Assembly: GCF_025979885.1 (NCBI RefSeq)
Contig: NZ_CP110139.1
Span: 124,001 to 188,000, forward strand
Source of the DNA: Hymenobacter sp. YIM 151500-1
Lineage (GTDB): Bacteria; Bacteroidota; Bacteroidia; Cytophagales; Hymenobacteraceae
Reading direction: 5' to 3'
Length of the DNA: 64,000 nt
Below, piece by piece: positions 664-55,461 of this stretch. Below the pieces are notes generated by a model. The model had not been told where the DNA came from and did no database searches. It saw only the letters and a list, made by a program, of their open reading frames with translations. Each line of letters opens with the position of its first letter. Within the stretch, counting starts at the first letter, position 1. Both the position numbers and the translations under genes were made by a program.

Positions 664-1644
664 TTAGGGCATAGTTACTGGTGAGCTAGCTCGCTGCGGG
701 GCAGCATACGCTTCCTGCCGCGGGAACTCCCCGCCCGGCGTGAGCCAGTCGAGTACGGCCATGCGAACGGAGATGCCGTTTTCAACCTGGTTGGTGATAA
801 GGCTGCGCTCGTAGTCCATGACGGCGTCGCACAGCTCGACCCCCCGGTTCACAGGGCCGGGGTGCATGATGTAGAGGCCGCGTTGGCGGATTTCCGCTAG
901 CCGGTCGTTGGTGATGCCGTAGACCCGGTGATATTCCCGAAGGCTGGGGAAAAACTGCACGTCCTGGCGCTCCATCTGCACGCGGAGCAGGTACACCACA
1001 TCGGGCGCCCAGGCCATGGCCGCCTCGTAGTCGGTGAAGCGGCGGATGCTTTCCGGGACATACTTGGGCACCAGGGAGCCTGGGCCGAGGTAAGCAACCT
1101 CGACGCCCAGCTTTTGCAGCAGGGTGCTGGTGGAGCGCGCGACGCGGGAATGGAGGATATCGCCGATAATGAGGACTTTTTTGCCCCTGGGGTCGGGAAA
1201 TTTTTCCTGGATGGTGAAGGCGTCCAGCAGGGCTTGGGTGGGGTGCTCGTGCGCCCCGTCGCCGGCATTGATGACCGACGCCGTGGTTTGGCGGGCAATC
1301 ATGCCGGGCAGGCCGGAGTGACCGTGGCGGACGACGATGTAGTCGGTGCGCATGGCCTGCAGCGTCTCGATGGTTTCGCGCACCGACTCGCCCTTGGTGA
1401 TGGAGGAATGGTCGACGTTGAAGTTCGTCACCTCGGCCGAGAGGCGTTTGGCGGCCACCTCGAAGGAGGAGTGCGTCCGGGTGCTGGCCTCATAGAACAG
1501 CATGAGCACGGACTTGCCCTCCAGGGCGGGAATTTTCTTCACCGAGCGGGTGAACAGTTTTTTAAAGCTCGTGGATTGGTCGAGCAGGAACTCGATTTCC
1601 TCACGGTGCAGGGATGCAATGTCGAGCAGGTCTTTACGTGCCAT
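664..1644 (-). CDS. pyrB: Aspartate carbamoyltransferase catalytic subunit
   Basis: PyrB condenses carbamoyl phosphate with aspartate, the first committed step of pyrimidine synthesis. The 326 residues are close to the usual length for the catalytic chain. The carbamoyl-phosphate loop reads STRTHSSFE at residues 54-62, where most family members have Arg instead of His. The mobile loop with SSITKGES, the HEHPTQALLDAFTI block and the HPGPVNRGVE segment near the C-terminus are all present. No regulatory subunit gene (pyrI) is nearby. The gene starts about 60 bases after a strong intrinsic terminator inside its own leader, which suggests attenuation control. pyrC follows on the same strand. Confidence 0.96.
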   Translation of the reverse strand: MARKDLLDIASLHREEIEFLLDQSTSFKKLFTRSVKKIPALEGKSVLMLFYEASTRTHSSFEVAAKRLSAEVTNFNVDHSSITKGESVRETIETLQAMRTDYIVVRHGHSGLPGMIARQTTASVINAGDGAHEHPTQALLDAFTIQEKFPDPRGKKVLIIGDILHSRVARSTSTLLQKLGVEVAYLGPGSLVPKYVPESIRRFTDYEAAMAWAPDVVYLLRVQMERQDVQFFPSLREYHRVYGITNDRLAEIRQRGLYIMHPGPVNRGVELCDAVMDYERSLITNQVENGISVRMAVLDWLTPGGEFPRQEAYAAPQRASSPVTMP

Positions 1645-48472: not shown

Positions 48473-48543
48473 GGTGACGTGACCGAGTGGCTAGGTAGAG
48501 GTCTGCAAAACCTCCTACAGCGGTTCGAATCCGCTCGTCACCT
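48473..48543 (+). tRNA. tRNA-Cys (GCA anticodon)
   Basis: The acceptor stem GGTGACG/CGTCACC is perfect, followed by discriminator T. The anticodon arm GAGGT-CTGCAAA-ACCTC gives anticodon GCA (Cys). The TpsiC arm has AGCGGTTCGAATCCGCT. CCA is not encoded. The short D arm is TGGCTAGGTA. Confidence 0.95.
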
Positions 48544-48785: not shown

Positions 48786-51416
48786 ATGAAGATTGTTGAC
48801 CTCCGCACCATGCGCGGCCCAAGCTACTGGTCCGTCAAGCATTACAAGCTGATTGTAATGAAAGTGGACCTGGGCGACTTAGCCGGTACGTGGTCGAACA
48901 GCGTGCCGGCCCTGGCTGAGCAGCTGCCGCAGCTGCTGCCCGAGCTAGGCCAGCCCCAGCCGGCCGAAGTGGGCCGTACCGCCCAGAAACACCCGCCCCT
49001 CACGGCCGAGCAGCTACTTGATGGTGAGCCGCTGGGACACGTAATTCAGCACGTGGCGCTGGCCTTGCAGCGCATGGCCGGCATGCCGGTGTACTGGGGC
49101 AAGTCGTACCCCGCGCACCAGCAGGGAGTGGAGTTTGTGGTGTTTGCCTACCAGGAGGAGCGGGCCGGCCGCGTGGCCGCCGAGGCGGCCGTGCAGCTTG
49201 TGGAAGACGTGTGCCAGGGGCGTAGCGTGAATGTAAAGCCCATCATTGATGAGCTGCACGAAATCCGGGAAGAAGAGTTTTTCGGCCCCAGCACCTATAG
49301 CATCGTAGCCGAGGCCGCCTCGCGCAATATTCCCTACATCCAGCTCAAAAACAGCAACATTATCCAGCTGGGCTACGGGGTCAACCAGAAGCGCATTTGG
49401 GCTACTACCACGTCGTATACCTCCCACGCCGGGGTGGAGGTAGCCGGTAATAAGAACCGCACCAAAGCCATGCTCCACGATGCCGGCGTGCCCGTACCCA
49501 ATGGCACCACGGTGTACTCGGAAAACGGCCTGCGTGACGCCGTGGAGGAGTTGGGCTTCCCCATTGTGACCAAGCCTCTGGACGGCAACCACGGCAAGGG
49601 CGCCACCATCCGCATTATGAACTGGGAAGACGCGGTAGAAGGCCTGAAAGCTGCCCAGCACTATTCCAGAGCCGTCATCGTGGAGCAGTTTATCCAGGGC
49701 CACGACTACCGTATGCTGGTGGTAAACGGCAAGCTGATTGCGGCGGCCAAACGCACGCCGGCCGCCGTAACCGGCAACGGCGTCAGCAGCATTCAGCAGC
49801 TGATTGATGAAGTGAACAAGGACCCGCGCCGGGGCGTGGGCCACGAAAAGGTGCTGACCAGCATCAAGGCCGACCAGCACACGCTCGACATCCTGAAGCA
49901 GCACGACCTGACCCTGGACAGCGTGCTGCCCGCCGGCCAGGAAATCTACCTGAAGAGCACCGCCAACATCAGCACCGGCGGCACCGCCACCGACGTGACG
50001 GACCTCGTGCACCCCTATAACGTGCTGCTGGCCGAGCGCGTGGCTGGCATCGTGGGCCTCGACATCTGCGGCATCGACCTGCTGGCCTCCGACATTGCCA
50101 TTCCGCTGAATGAGTCGCGTGGCGCCGTAATTGAGGTAAACGCGGCGCCGGGCTTCCGCATGCACATTTCGCCTACCGAAGGCCTGCCCCGCAACGTGGC
50201 CGAGCCGGTAGTGGACATGCTGTTCCCCAGGGGCACCACGGCGCGCATTCCGATTATGGCCGTGACGGGCACCAACGGTAAAACCACCACCACGCTGCTA
50301 ATGGCACACATTGTGGCCACCAAAGGCTACAAAGTGGGCCATACCACCACCAACGGTATCTACATCCAGGGCGTGCAGCTGCAAAGCGGCGACTGTACGG
50401 GTGGGCAGAGCGCTGAGTTTGTGCTGAAAGACCCGACGGTGAACTTTGCGGTGCTGGAAACGGCGCGGGGCGGGATGCTTCGCTCGGGCCTGGGCTTCCA
50501 CACCTGCGACGTGGCCGTGGTGACCAACGTGGCCGCCGACCACCTGGGCCTGCGCGACATCTACACGGTAGAGGAAATGGCGGCTGTGAAAGGCGTGCTG
50601 CCCCGCACCGTGCGCAAAAATGGCTGGGCCGTGCTCAACGCCGACGATGACCTGGTGTACGCCATGCGCGAAAAGGTGGACTGCAACGTGGCCCTGTTCA
50701 GCATGGATGAGCACAGCCAGCGCATCCGGGAGCATGTGGAAAACGGGGGCGTGGCGGCTGTGTACGAGGAAGGCTACATCACCATCTACAAAAACTCCTA
50801 CAAGCTGCGCATCGACCGGGCCGCCGAGTTTCCGGTGACGTTCGGTGGCCGGGCCACCTTCAACATCGAAAACTGCCTGGCGGCGGCCCTGGCCTGCTAC
50901 TGCTACGGCTTCGACAAGGACGACATCAAAACAGCTCTGCGCACATTCGTGCCATCGGCCACCAAGACGCCGGGCCGCATGAATGTCTACAAGTTTCCGC
51001 AGTTTGAGGTCATCGTCGATTACGCCCACAACACGGCCGGCATCGAGAAATTTGCCGAGTTCCTGAACGCCACCGAAGCCACCCACAAAGTCGGCATCGT
51101 ATCAGGCCTGGGCGACCGGCGCGACGAAGACACGCTGGGTTTTGCCCGCGTCGCTGGCCGCATCTTCGACGAGGTGATTCTGCGCCAGGACCGGGACCTG
51201 CGCGGCAAAACCGCCGCCGAGCTGCGCGAAATCATGGAGCGGGGCCTGCGCCTCGATGCACCCAACCTGCCCATTACCTACATCGAAAACGAAATGGACG
51301 CCATCGACCACGCCCTGAACACCGCCCGGCCCGGCTCCGTTATCGTGCTCCTGACCGAAAACATCAAGGGCACCCTAAAGAAGCTGGACGAGTACGAGAC
51401 GCTGATAGGGGCGTAA
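48786..51416 (+). CDS. cphA: Cyanophycin synthetase
   Basis: CphA adds Asp and Arg alternately to build multi-L-arginyl-poly-aspartate (cyanophycin) reserve granules. The 876 residues hold an N-terminal domain (about 1-165), an ATP-grasp domain (about 215-470: GIPVPNGT-like GVPVPNGTTVYSE, KPLDGNHGKGATI, CGIDLLASDIAIP, VIEVNAAPGFRMH) and a Mur-ligase-like domain with P-loop GTNGKTTTT (about 497-505) and the DYAHNTAG block near 745. The usual companions (a second cphA or cyanophycinase) are not next to it. It starts 180 bp after the tRNA-Cys terminator and ends in a strong bidirectional terminator. Confidence 0.95.
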   Translation: MKIVDLRTMRGPSYWSVKHYKLIVMKVDLGDLAGTWSNSVPALAEQLPQLLPELGQPQPAEVGRTAQKHPPLTAEQLLDGEPLGHVIQHVALALQRMAGMPVYWGKSYPAHQQGVEFVVFAYQEERAGRVAAEAAVQLVEDVCQGRSVNVKPIIDELHEIREEEFFGPSTYSIVAEAASRNIPYIQLKNSNIIQLGYGVNQKRIWATTTSYTSHAGVEVAGNKNRTKAMLHDAGVPVPNGTTVYSENGLRDAVEELGFPIVTKPLDGNHGKGATIRIMNWEDAVEGLKAAQHYSRAVIVEQFIQGHDYRMLVVNGKLIAAAKRTPAAVTGNGVSSIQQLIDEVNKDPRRGVGHEKVLTSIKADQHTLDILKQHDLTLDSVLPAGQEIYLKSTANISTGGTATDVTDLVHPYNVLLAERVAGIVGLDICGIDLLASDIAIPLNESRGAVIEVNAAPGFRMHISPTEGLPRNVAEPVVDMLFPRGTTARIPIMAVTGTNGKTTTTLLMAHIVATKGYKVGHTTTNGIYIQGVQLQSGDCTGGQSAEFVLKDPTVNFAVLETARGGMLRSGLGFHTCDVAVVTNVAADHLGLRDIYTVEEMAAVKGVLPRTVRKNGWAVLNADDDLVYAMREKVDCNVALFSMDEHSQRIREHVENGGVAAVYEEGYITIYKNSYKLRIDRAAEFPVTFGGRATFNIENCLAAALACYCYGFDKDDIKTALRTFVPSATKTPGRMNVYKFPQFEVIVDYAHNTAGIEKFAEFLNATEATHKVGIVSGLGDRRDEDTLGFARVAGRIFDEVILRQDRDLRGKTAAELREIMERGLRLDAPNLPITYIENEMDAIDHALNTARPGSVIVLLTENIKGTLKKLDEYETLIGA

Positions 51417-53332: not shown

Positions 53333-54157
53333 ATGATTAATTCTCTTGCCCGCGCCCTGCCGCACTTCCGCCACACCGACTCGGGGCAGTTTTTTCTGAT
53401 GGCTGGTCCCTGCGTGATTGAGGGCGAAGACATGGCCCTGCGCATTGCCGAGCAGGTACGCACCCTCTGCGACCGGCTCCAGATTCCATATATCTTCAAG
53501 GGCTCCTACCGCAAAGCCAACCGCAGCCGCCTCGACTCGTTCACCGGCATCGGCGACGAAACGGCCCTGCGCATCCTACAGAAAGTAGGCCGCGAAATCG
53601 GCGTGCCCACCGTCACCGACATCCACGAGTCGGACGAGGCAGCCTTGGCGGCCGAGTACGTGGACGTGCTGCAGATTCCGGCCTTCCTGTGCCGGCAGAC
53701 GGATTTGCTGGTGGCCGCCGCTCAGACCGGCAAGGTCGTCAACATCAAGAAAGGCCAGTTTCTGAGCGGCGAGTCCATGCAGTTTGCCGTGGACAAGGTG
53801 CAGCAGTCGGGTAATGAGCACGTCATCCTCACCGACCGGGGTAACTCCTTCGGCTATTCCGACCTGGTGGTGGACTTCCGCAACCTGCCGGCCATGCGCC
53901 GCTTCGGGGTGCCCGTGGTGATGGACGTAACCCACTCCCTGCAACAGCCCAACCAGGGCAGCGGCGTCACGGGCGGCCAGCCCCAGCTCATCGAAACCAT
54001 TGCCAAAGCCGCCATTGCCGTGGGTGCCGACGGCCTGTTCATTGAAACCCACCCGACGCCCGCCACGGCCAAGTCGGACGGTGCTAACATGCTGGCCCTG
54101 GACCAGTTAGAGGCTCTACTGGTTAAGCTTACACGGGTGAGGGAGGCCGTGCGCTAA
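53333..54157 (+). CDS. kdsA: 3-deoxy-8-phosphooctulonate synthase
   Basis: KdsA condenses arabinose 5-phosphate and phosphoenolpyruvate to Kdo-8-phosphate for lipopolysaccharide. The 274 residues are typical. AGPCVIEGEDMALRIAE near 24-40, FKGSYRKANRSRLDSF (58-73), TDIHESDEA, the FLCRQTDLL segment and GTNSFGY-like DRGNSFGYSDLVVDFRNLP all match. HPTPATAKSDGANMLALD near the C-terminus is also a family mark. This supports a Gram-negative outer membrane. Neighbour genes are not Kdo genes. Confidence 0.96.
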   Translation: MINSLARALPHFRHTDSGQFFLMAGPCVIEGEDMALRIAEQVRTLCDRLQIPYIFKGSYRKANRSRLDSFTGIGDETALRILQKVGREIGVPTVTDIHESDEAALAAEYVDVLQIPAFLCRQTDLLVAAAQTGKVVNIKKGQFLSGESMQFAVDKVQQSGNEHVILTDRGNSFGYSDLVVDFRNLPAMRRFGVPVVMDVTHSLQQPNQGSGVTGGQPQLIETIAKAAIAVGADGLFIETHPTPATAKSDGANMLALDQLEALLVKLTRVREAVR

Positions 54158-54207
54158 GTTTAGGCGGCTGAGTTACGGTTGGTTGCATTTGGTTTCAAAA
54201 CAAAGCC

Positions 54208-54215
54208 TATATTTG
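54208..54215 (+). promoter_or_regulatory. Promoter of the candidate small RNA
   Basis: TATATTTG fits TAnnTTTG. A TTG at 54183-54185, 22 bases upstream, is a possible -33 box. Start of transcription near 54221. Confidence 0.6.
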
Positions 54216-54220
54216 TTTCG

Positions 54221-54480
54221 TTGGAAGCGAAAGTAGCAGAGAGCTTCCGCCCCCTGCTACCGTTTCCGCTTAGGGGCTGAAGAGCATATATAATCCTCCT
54301 ACGCCTCCCAAAGCAGCCAAAACCTTCACTACGAAGGTTGTGGTAACCCGGATGGAGCAATGAAATTGCAGCCCTTCCAGGTCGGTACGTCTCAAGCCCA
54401 TAACCAAGTGGATTTGAGGGTGGCCTAAACACCCTTCTTATCCTGAAGCCCGTGTTACCGCACGGGCTTCGCTGTTTGTT
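54221..54480 (+). ncRNA. Candidate structured small RNA, about 250 nt
   Basis: A good promoter is followed by about 250 bases with many possible stems and no coding frame, then a terminator. Stems I see include GTAGCAG/CTGCTAC, GGCTG/CAGCC, AACCTT/AAGGTT, GCAAT/ATTGC, CTCAA/TTGAG and GGGTG/CACCC. No gene follows on the same strand, so it is not a riboswitch. It lacks the conserved sequences of RNase P RNA, tmRNA and SRP RNA. A 6S-type RNA or a new RNA are both possible. Confidence 0.55.
54445..54470 (+). terminator. Terminator of the candidate small RNA
   Basis: GAAGCCCGTG/CACGGGCTTC, 10-bp perfect stem, six-base loop, then GCTGTTTGTT. The T-tract is interrupted, so strength is moderate. Confidence 0.75.
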
Positions 54481-54600
54481 AAGCAGCCGTGTTGGCGGGG
54501 TGACAACCGTACGTTATGCCAAATATACTAGTAATCGTGCGGGAGTGTTAAGCCTGCTTGCTAAAAAAAATAGTAAACATATTGGCCTCCTGCTTACTGT

Positions 54601-55461
54601 TCAGGTTGATAACCGCCGGGTCTGTTCCAGCAACTGGTCCAGCCAGTAGTCAAACCGCAGGGTAAAATGCTGTTTAGGTAAGTTGCGGCGAAAGAACACA
54701 AGGCCCACGTAGAACAGGTCGATGGTGAGCGTAACGTCGGGGTGCTGACGGATGGTGCGCCAAGCCCGCTCCATTTCCGAGGACCAGTGAATGTCGTCGA
54801 GCACAAACAGGCTGTGCTCGTTGCGGTGCAGGTTGAGTTGCTCGAAGTAGCGCACCGTGGGCTCGTAGCGGTGGTTGCCGTCAAAGAAAGCAAAGTCTAC
54901 GGGCGCTGATAGCGCCGCCAGGGTAGGGGCGAGGGTATCGTCCAGGTTACCCTCTACCAGCTCCACATTACGGAGGCCCAGCTCCGCGAAGGTCTGGCGG
55001 GCTACGGCGGCCGTTTGGGGGCAGCCCTCGAAGGTAACAACGCGGGCCCGCGAATCGGCCGAAGCCAGGTAAGCCGTGCTCAGGCCCAGGGAAGTGCCCA
55101 GCTCCAGCACCGTGCGCGGCTGCATGAAGTTGACCAGCCGAAACAAGAGCTGCCCCAGCCGGGGCGGCTTGGCAGCCGTGCGGGCAATGTCGCGCAGGTG
55201 GCGGGTGCGGCCCGCGCCGGTGTGGGAGCCCGCCCCAAAATCCCTTACCGTAATCGTGGTGTCGTCGGTGAGCAGCTGCTGGCGCCGGGCTTCCACAGCT
55301 TCGTAGGCCGCAAAATGGCCGTCGTGGTGGATGACGTGGGCGTACAACCCGAACACAAAGGGCGAGTGCAGCCCGTGAGCGTTGCCCGAGCGCCACAAAA
55401 AGCGCAGGTAGCTGAGAAGTTGGAAAAGCAAAACGGGCGCAGCTTGAGTAGAAAAGCGCAA
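54601..55461 (-). CDS. Class I SAM-dependent methyltransferase
   Basis: The 286-residue protein resembles O-methyltransferase-like Methyltransf_24 enzymes: VLELGTSLGLSTAYLASADS is SAM motif I (about residues 116-135), VTFEGCPQTAAVARQTF follows, and FAFFDGNHRYEPTVRYFEQL and VLDDIHWSSEMERAWRTIRQ complete the fold. The N-terminal part has a HGLHSPFVFGLY segment found in this Bacteroidota family. Substrate unknown. It is convergent with the candidate small RNA and stands 150 bp from apaG. Confidence 0.88.
   Translation of the reverse strand: MRFSTQAAPVLLFQLLSYLRFLWRSGNAHGLHSPFVFGLYAHVIHHDGHFAAYEAVEARRQQLLTDDTTITVRDFGAGSHTGAGRTRHLRDIARTAAKPPRLGQLLFRLVNFMQPRTVLELGTSLGLSTAYLASADSRARVVTFEGCPQTAAVARQTFAELGLRNVELVEGNLDDTLAPTLAALSAPVDFAFFDGNHRYEPTVRYFEQLNLHRNEHSLFVLDDIHWSSEMERAWRTIRQHPDVTLTIDLFYVGLVFFRRNLPKQHFTLRFDYWLDQLLEQTRRLST

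Follow-up and report, generated by a model that had tools for sequence, protein, structure and literature searches.

A putative multi-copy type I toxin-antitoxin-like module with a structured mRNA leader in Hymenobacter

The window analyzed here is a stretch of 64,000 nucleotides from Hymenobacter sp. YIM 151500-1 (contig NZ_CP110139.1, positions 124,001 to 188,000). At positions 54208–54480 of the window lies a unit that a first-pass annotation had described as an orphan, stand-alone structured RNA on the plus strand. We find a conserved 43-codon open reading frame (ORF) on the minus strand of the same DNA, and the locus is probably one copy of a multi-copy module of the type I toxin-antitoxin kind. 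The observed features are the conserved ORF, two convergent promoter boxes, a covarying leader, a multi-copy spread, and the carriage of relatives on plasmids. The module would probably represent a new type I-like family, with the plus-strand RNA as its antitoxin.

The plus-strand unit and the minus-strand frame

The plus-strand unit starts exactly with the element TATATTTG at 54208–54215. This element fits TAnnTTTG, which is given as the Bacteroidota −7 box consensus in the excerpts used of two reports (PMC6847099, PMC9723704). TATATTTG occurs twice on each strand of the window, and one occurrence of each flanks the unit in convergent orientation. The plus-strand RNA (54223–54478, 256 nt) folds with −100.4 kcal/mol, compared with a shuffled mean of −72.9 (z −5.85; none of 200 shuffles as low), and a 12-pair hairpin at 54444–54471 is followed by a tail moderately rich in T. 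A promoter, RNA, and terminator unit, as proposed by the first-pass annotation, is therefore borne out, and so is the lack of a downstream gene in the same direction, as the neighboring gene (54601–55461) lies on the opposite strand. No plus-strand ORF of at least 40 codons is present between 54158 and 54451; a frame of 65 codons with a GTG start begins at 54452 and exits the unit. The first-pass annotation overlooked that the minus strand is coding.

At the gathering threshold, the sole Rfam match in the whole window is a tRNA at 48473–48543, with none at the unit, and a search of 54150–54620 at E values up to 10 gave five weak matches, the best with 20.4 bits against a cut-off of 50. Both searches agree with the earlier view that the unit is not RNase P RNA, tmRNA, or signal recognition particle (SRP) RNA. 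Neither returned 6S RNA, which had been suggested in a divergent form, and 6S or another housekeeping RNA was rejected on the lack of an Rfam match together with the coding signal on the opposite strand. The labels orphan and stand-alone are not supported; the opposite frame has its own promoter box and leader. The annotation itself had named a coding frame conserved in relatives as evidence against its reading, and such a frame is present, on the opposite strand.

The minus-strand ORF (54401–54270) is unannotated. DNA matches to the unit were found in 13 of the 101 genomes of the genus, its own included, and the minus frame is present in all 13 loci. The match is near full length, promoter box included, with 78–82% identity in 9 of the 12 other genomes, and it runs only from position 103 or 114 onward in the remaining three. 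Among the 10 copies of 43 codons (44 of 45 pairs usable; the 3 of 13 window-type copies with 46 codons were left out), nonsynonymous divergence (dN) is 0.135 and synonymous divergence (dS) is 0.938, giving a dN/dS ratio of 0.14. Departures from the majority in these 10 copies number 46, 21, and 112 at codon positions 1, 2, and 3, and 29, 18, and 97 when the first eight codons are removed. The ORF is under purifying selection. Five further subfamilies also have a dN (0.14–0.36) below dS (0.45–1.24). A large share of the structure and conservation of the plus strand must come from the complementary structured mRNA and its codons, and the plus-strand RNA is most likely an antisense regulator of the minus-strand mRNA and a candidate antitoxin.

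AlphaFold2 predicts a single helix for residues 6–41 of the window protein with low confidence (mean predicted local distance difference test score (pLDDT) 64, predicted template modeling score (pTM) 0.28). Pfam at E values up to 10 gave no match for any of 8 family proteins, so none hits one of the type I toxin families of Pfam, such as Hok, Ldr, and Fst. For the same number of proteins, NCBIfam gave nothing above cut-off and one sub-threshold match to an unrelated family (E 0.073), and PHROGs and PADLOC returned nothing for 5 proteins. The family proteins fall into quite different groups and are small and mostly cationic. Among the 75 copies defined below, the net charge is positive in 73, and the best 19-residue Kyte-Doolittle mean is at least 1.0 in 73; the window protein reaches 1.91.

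The leader, the long-range helix, and the promoter boxes

The copies were collected through their leader. A 23-base leader core, with up to 3 mismatches, is present in 25 of the 101 genus genomes, 8 of which hold it at more than one place. The 30 loci from this core search share a common leader architecture, and 25 of them have an intact frame by the filter given below. A covariance model of the leader (R1) matches the whole window once, at 54377–54517 on the minus strand with 121.7 bits. From 138 model matches, 37 were dropped because they were short hits on the opposite strand to the palindromic hairpin, and one more as a partial second copy (in L040; loci carry the prefix L). The 100 loci left are a chosen sample, with 30 from the core search, 10 from the genus and family R1 searches, and 60 taken across the score range. 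The intact-frame filter (ATG, 36–55 codons, at the expected fixed place) was passed by 83 of the 100 copies. The 17 without an intact frame include copies with stops or frame changes; L031 reads past the usual stop, and some of the 17 may use another start codon. Removal of 7 of the 83 copies as more than 90% alike gave a set of 76, and the later removal of L122, a doubtful copy that looks like a false match, gave a set of 75.

RNAalifold pairs the first bases of the leader with codons near the start of the ORF. In a 27-sequence alignment, 98.6% of the pairs in three helices are standard, compared with 26–54% when the partners are slid by 1–3 columns. Within the long-range helix, one base pair varies among the 27 sequences: 14 have UA, 8 have CG, and 5 have UG. 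Four of five measures stand out in a shuffle test of this alignment (reached by 0, 6, 0, and 0 of 500 shuffles), although the tested structure came from this very alignment and is thereby favored. When each leader of the 76 copies is paired with its own ORF start, the mean energy is −12.7 kcal/mol, against −10.9 for permuted partners, and none of 10,000 permutations is as good. Of 75 predicted mRNAs, 66 contain the long-range helix in their minimum-energy fold, compared with 14–16 of 75 when the ORF starts are shuffled.

The pairing is kept with changed sequences. In most copies GCACG pairs with CGUGC, whereas L090 pairs UCGCGUU with AACGCGA (by eye, L131 shares both segments). In L118, CGCAGG pairs with CCUGCG. 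Because divergent copies change both sides of the helix together, the recurrent RAK start of the proteins is at least partly a requirement of the RNA. The long-range helix would be expected to block translation initiation. Bacteroidota mRNAs are described as being without Shine-Dalgarno sequences, with translation partly tuned by structure at the start site, and such tuning is described for Flavobacterium in the same excerpt (PMC6847099). A leader stretch, CACCCCGCCAA (54502–54492, minus strand), is exact in 30 of 75 copies. Its CACCC and the CACCC of hairpin P3 could compete for the same GGGTG, like a metastable switch; no covariation bearing on this competition was seen.

The promoter boxes are found at fixed places on both strands. 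On the sense side, 58 of 75 copies have a TAnnTTYG box no more than 30 nt from the leader, compared with 2 of 75 when shuffled, and in 50 of the 58 the box ends 2–3 nt ahead of the R1 model start; therefore, the mRNA should start at the first bases of the leader. On the antisense side, the promoter box is strongly conserved, and transcription of the antisense RNA gene is predicted from it. TAnnTTTG in antisense direction occurs within 100 nt past the stop codon in 57 of 76 copies, whereas base shuffling gives a mean of 1.2 and a maximum of 4 in 200 rounds. In the three bins of 100 nt that follow, it is seen in 2, 0, and 1 of the 76 copies, and the motif in sense direction occurs in the first bin in 3 of 76.

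Seven related copies with proteins ending in ARHW form a subfamily in which the downstream antisense box is present in 0 of 7; outside this subfamily, 59 of 68 copies have it no further than 130 nt beyond the stop. All seven ARHW copies have an antisense TAnnTTCG at ORF nucleotides 20–27, and 1 of the 68 others has one in this stretch. We regard this exchange of a downstream for an intragenic box as the strongest indication that the box is functional, although the seven copies may go back to a single event. For the mRNA, a perfect hairpin with a T-tract follows the stop in 21 of 75 copies, compared with 2 of 75 when shuffled, by a crude test.

Table 1. Features of the module in the window
Feature	Positions	Strand	Basis
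−7 box TATATTTG, promoter of the antisense RNA (antitoxin candidate)	54208–54215	+	Consensus match; without clear −33 element
Antisense RNA candidate, ~260 nt	54220–54478	+	Ends inferred from box and terminator; transcription predicted
Terminator-like hairpin of the antisense RNA; same palindrome as mRNA leader hairpin P2	54444–54471	+	Fold and alignment
−7 box TATATTTG of the mRNA promoter	54520–54527	−	Consensus match
mRNA leader, ~113 nt	54402–54514	−	Start inferred from −7 box; R1 match
Long-range helix, 5' strand, pairs with 54385–54389	54508–54512	−	Alignment columns 6–10 with 147–151
Long-range helix, 3' strand, codons 5–6 of the ORF	54385–54389	−	Alignment columns 6–10 with 147–151
43-codon ORF (stop included), toxin candidate, C-terminal half hydrophobic	54270–54401	−	Frame, dN/dS, helix model
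mRNA terminator hairpin, T-rich tail 54232–54223	54230–54261	−	Predicted fold, by eye

An imperfect inverted repeat, TTTGCTA-N6/7-TAGCAAA, was seen by eye at 54558–54577, ~30–50 bases upstream of the mRNA −7 box. The same repeat stands upstream of the sense promoter in L003 and L005–L010, and it could be a protein-binding site of the window-type subfamily.

Distribution, genomic place, and plasmid carriage

R1 finds the leader in 76 of the 101 genus genomes, with 1–13 matches each. At the family level it is present in 54 of 150 genomes and 2 of 6 genera, which adds one sister genus, and at the order level in 25 of 291 genomes and 1 of 115 genera, only Hymenobacter; the large searches were run with stricter filters, under which weak copies can be missed. 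The window genome has seven R1 matches. Six were read, namely the window copy and L078–L082, and the frame is intact in the window copy, L078, and L080 but not in L079, L081, and L082. The seventh is C1:1217090-1217238 with 29 bits. L040 has a partial second leader match at 764–860 (minus strand, 40 bits), ~530 bases from its full copy at 1393–1531 (minus strand), and this partial match is a decayed neighbor copy.

A pattern search of a genome collection gave 69 stretches, 39 of them from Hymenobacter. The other 30 reach at most 25 bits with R1 and were taken as chance matches, as they had been chosen by the same pattern and their alignments are short; four of them have E values below 0.005 (L189, L196, L169, and L193), and two from Bacteroidetes metagenome-assembled genomes, L177 and L178, score 14.9 and 16.2 bits. 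Viral contigs gave no exact match to the leader pattern, and Rfam at the gathering threshold found nothing relevant in 14 other loci.

In the window, the module is flanked by kdsA and a methyltransferase gene. The copies in L002–L010 occupy the same place, unlike those in L011–L013, so that this place is kept in 10 genomes. Among the best 30 methyltransferase loci from 101 genomes with a match, 7, the window included, carry the element core between the two genes, which are 449–477 bases apart. In 22 of the 30, kdsA adjoins the methyltransferase gene at 60–248 bases without the core, and in 1 kdsA is out of reach. Because 7 loci have the core and 22 do not, and the gap shrinks where it is missing, the module is a discrete unit that is gained or lost. 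Where the module is missing (for example in L216, L219, L220, L222, and L224), a long inverted repeat with GTCATTCTGAGCG or a similar motif is often found in the gap and looks like a dispersed repeat.

Several copies are carried by small mobilizable plasmids. L190 (5,645 bases) and L138 have Rep3 and relaxase genes, and L180 has relaxase and MobC genes, as confirmed by Pfam. The coverage of L190 is 516, compared with 15.6 for L173 of the same strain. Relatives of Rep or Mob genes lie near 8 of 39 Hymenobacter loci. A relative of one family protein is found in three Hymenobacter plasmid records; the PLSDB table, itself incomplete, lists no feature at the position of the match. In one of them, NZ_CP095059.1, the match has mobC on one side and, past one hypothetical gene, the replication gene on the other; it comes in two pieces, and the frame may be broken.

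Elsewhere in the window, an 876-codon ORF (48786–51416, plus strand) adjoins the tRNA at 48473–48543; we take it to resemble cyanophycin synthetase.

Interpretation and comparison with known systems

The proposed mechanism runs as follows. A short minus-strand mRNA would encode a 43-residue helical, hydrophobic protein, and its 5'-terminal nucleotides would fold onto the first codons, so that translation is locked. From the convergent promoter past the stop codon, a plus-strand RNA of ~260 nt would be made, antisense to the ORF and to most of the leader; its terminator would be the mirror image of leader hairpin P2. Pairing of the two RNAs in the cell would block translation and promote decay of the mRNA. 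If the plus-strand RNA were lost first, upon plasmid loss or stress, the protein would be made and would act on the membrane as a toxin, under antisense control in the intact module.

The purifying selection on the ORF, the antisense box, the long-range helix, the copies without an intact frame (17 of 100), the multi-copy occurrence of the leader (76 of 101 genomes), the plasmid carriage, and the cationic, moderately hydrophobic proteins support a toxin-antitoxin module. With moderate confidence, we extend this to a genus-wide superfamily of antisense-controlled membrane toxins in Bacteroidota, found on chromosomes and small plasmids, in which fast-evolving proteins would share one conserved leader that clamps the first codons, the RAK start would be dictated by RNA pairing, and one subfamily would have moved its antitoxin promoter from behind the stop codon into the ORF.

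A number of observations weigh against this view. Transcription and toxicity are predictions from the sequence, and the helix model is of low confidence. The usual transmembrane threshold of 1.6 is reached by only 27 of 75 copies, the window protein among them, so that the hydrophobicity of the family is moderate, not strong. The number of further pair types in the alignment is reached by 131 of 500 shuffles, and a leader pairs better, on average, with 30% of the foreign ORF starts than with its own. All copy statistics, the helix tests included, ignore the relatedness of the copies. The downstream antisense box is missing in 9 of the 68 copies outside the ARHW subfamily, and no clear −33 element is seen upstream of the box, only T-rich and A-rich stretches. 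By a simple test, a perfect P2 stem of at least 6 pairs occurs in only 36 of 75 copies; these have a mean of 4.06 T in the next 10 antisense bases, a figure without a control. No copy was found by R1 in 25 of the 101 genus genomes.

The same ORF, leader, and antisense box would also fit a conserved small membrane protein that is not toxic, with a structured leader that controls translation and a cis-antisense RNA that tunes it. The retention of the kdsA copy at one place in 10 genomes and the moderate hydrophobicity of most copies speak for this account. We nevertheless regard it as unlikely, although clearly ahead of the remaining alternatives, as an addiction module would better explain than a housekeeping protein why genomes contain many divergent copies, some of them broken, why the module comes and goes at one site, and why it is carried on small plasmids next to Rep and Mob genes. 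It is improbable that only a small protein gene with a structured leader is present, with a non-working antisense box and a silent plus strand. Plus-strand transcription is a prediction from the DNA, with no clear −33 element to go with it; however, the box (57 of 76 copies; 1.2 on average after shuffling) is specific in strand and position, and the ARHW subfamily swaps the downstream box for an intragenic one.

A small non-autonomous mobile element with an incidental ORF is very improbable. It would account for a dispersed, multi-copy unit of ~300 bp that is present or absent as a whole, bounded by TATATTTG and, at its far end, the complement of TATATTTG, but no terminal inverted repeat beyond the promoter boxes is seen by eye, the copies are very divergent, and the codons are under selection. 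Least probable of all is the original proposal of an independent structured RNA, for instance a divergent form of 6S RNA; the plus strand does have a promoter, a fold, and a terminator, but there is no Rfam match, conservation tracks the codons of the opposite strand, and many copies occur per genome.

If the toxin-antitoxin reading is right, plasmid maintenance and antisense control in Bacteroidota become directly testable, and the module shows how a toxin mRNA is locked by its own 5' end clamping the first codons, with no Shine-Dalgarno site to hide. Further modules can be sought through the shared leader. Titles and abstract openings in the literature searched mention no such family for Bacteroidetes, Cytophagales, or Hymenobacter, and the family is apparently undescribed. 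Most known type I modules come from Proteobacteria and Firmicutes.

By analogy, the anatomy matches that of type I modules, with a mechanism that would be nearest to AapA/IsoA and a lifestyle nearest to Hok/Sok and Fst/RNAII (PMC6733600, PMC8309996, PMC8167048); the comparison draws on excerpts of these reports. AapA/IsoA of Helicobacter pylori likewise has several chromosomal copies, an ORF for a small toxic peptide faced by an antisense RNA from the other strand, and a long-distance interaction that keeps the mRNA translationally inert. In AapA/IsoA the 5' and 3' ends interact, whereas in the Hymenobacter module the first codons are the partner of the 5' end. The AapA peptide has 30 residues and IsoA3 has 80 nt, compared with ~36–55 residues by the filter and a predicted antisense RNA of ~260 nt in Hymenobacter. 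The effect of the AapA peptide has been shown (PMC6733600), whereas toxicity in Hymenobacter is a prediction.

Hok/Sok of plasmid R1 shares a small membrane-type protein, an antisense RNA, a self-folded mRNA, and both plasmid and chromosomal copies; the hok mRNA folds with its 5' end onto its 3' end and is controlled through the overlapping frame mok (PMC8167048). No mok-like overlapping frame was seen in the Hymenobacter module, for which no systematic search was made, and the Hymenobacter proteins differ in having no Pfam match. Fst/RNAII resembles the module in its convergent genes, and plasmid addiction is described for Fst. In Fst/RNAII and the Gram-positive 3'-overlapping pairs, the overlap is mainly at the 3' ends (PMC8167048). 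In contrast, the Hymenobacter antisense RNA is predicted to run over the whole ORF and to end in the leader; for the ARHW subfamily, an intragenic start would be expected.
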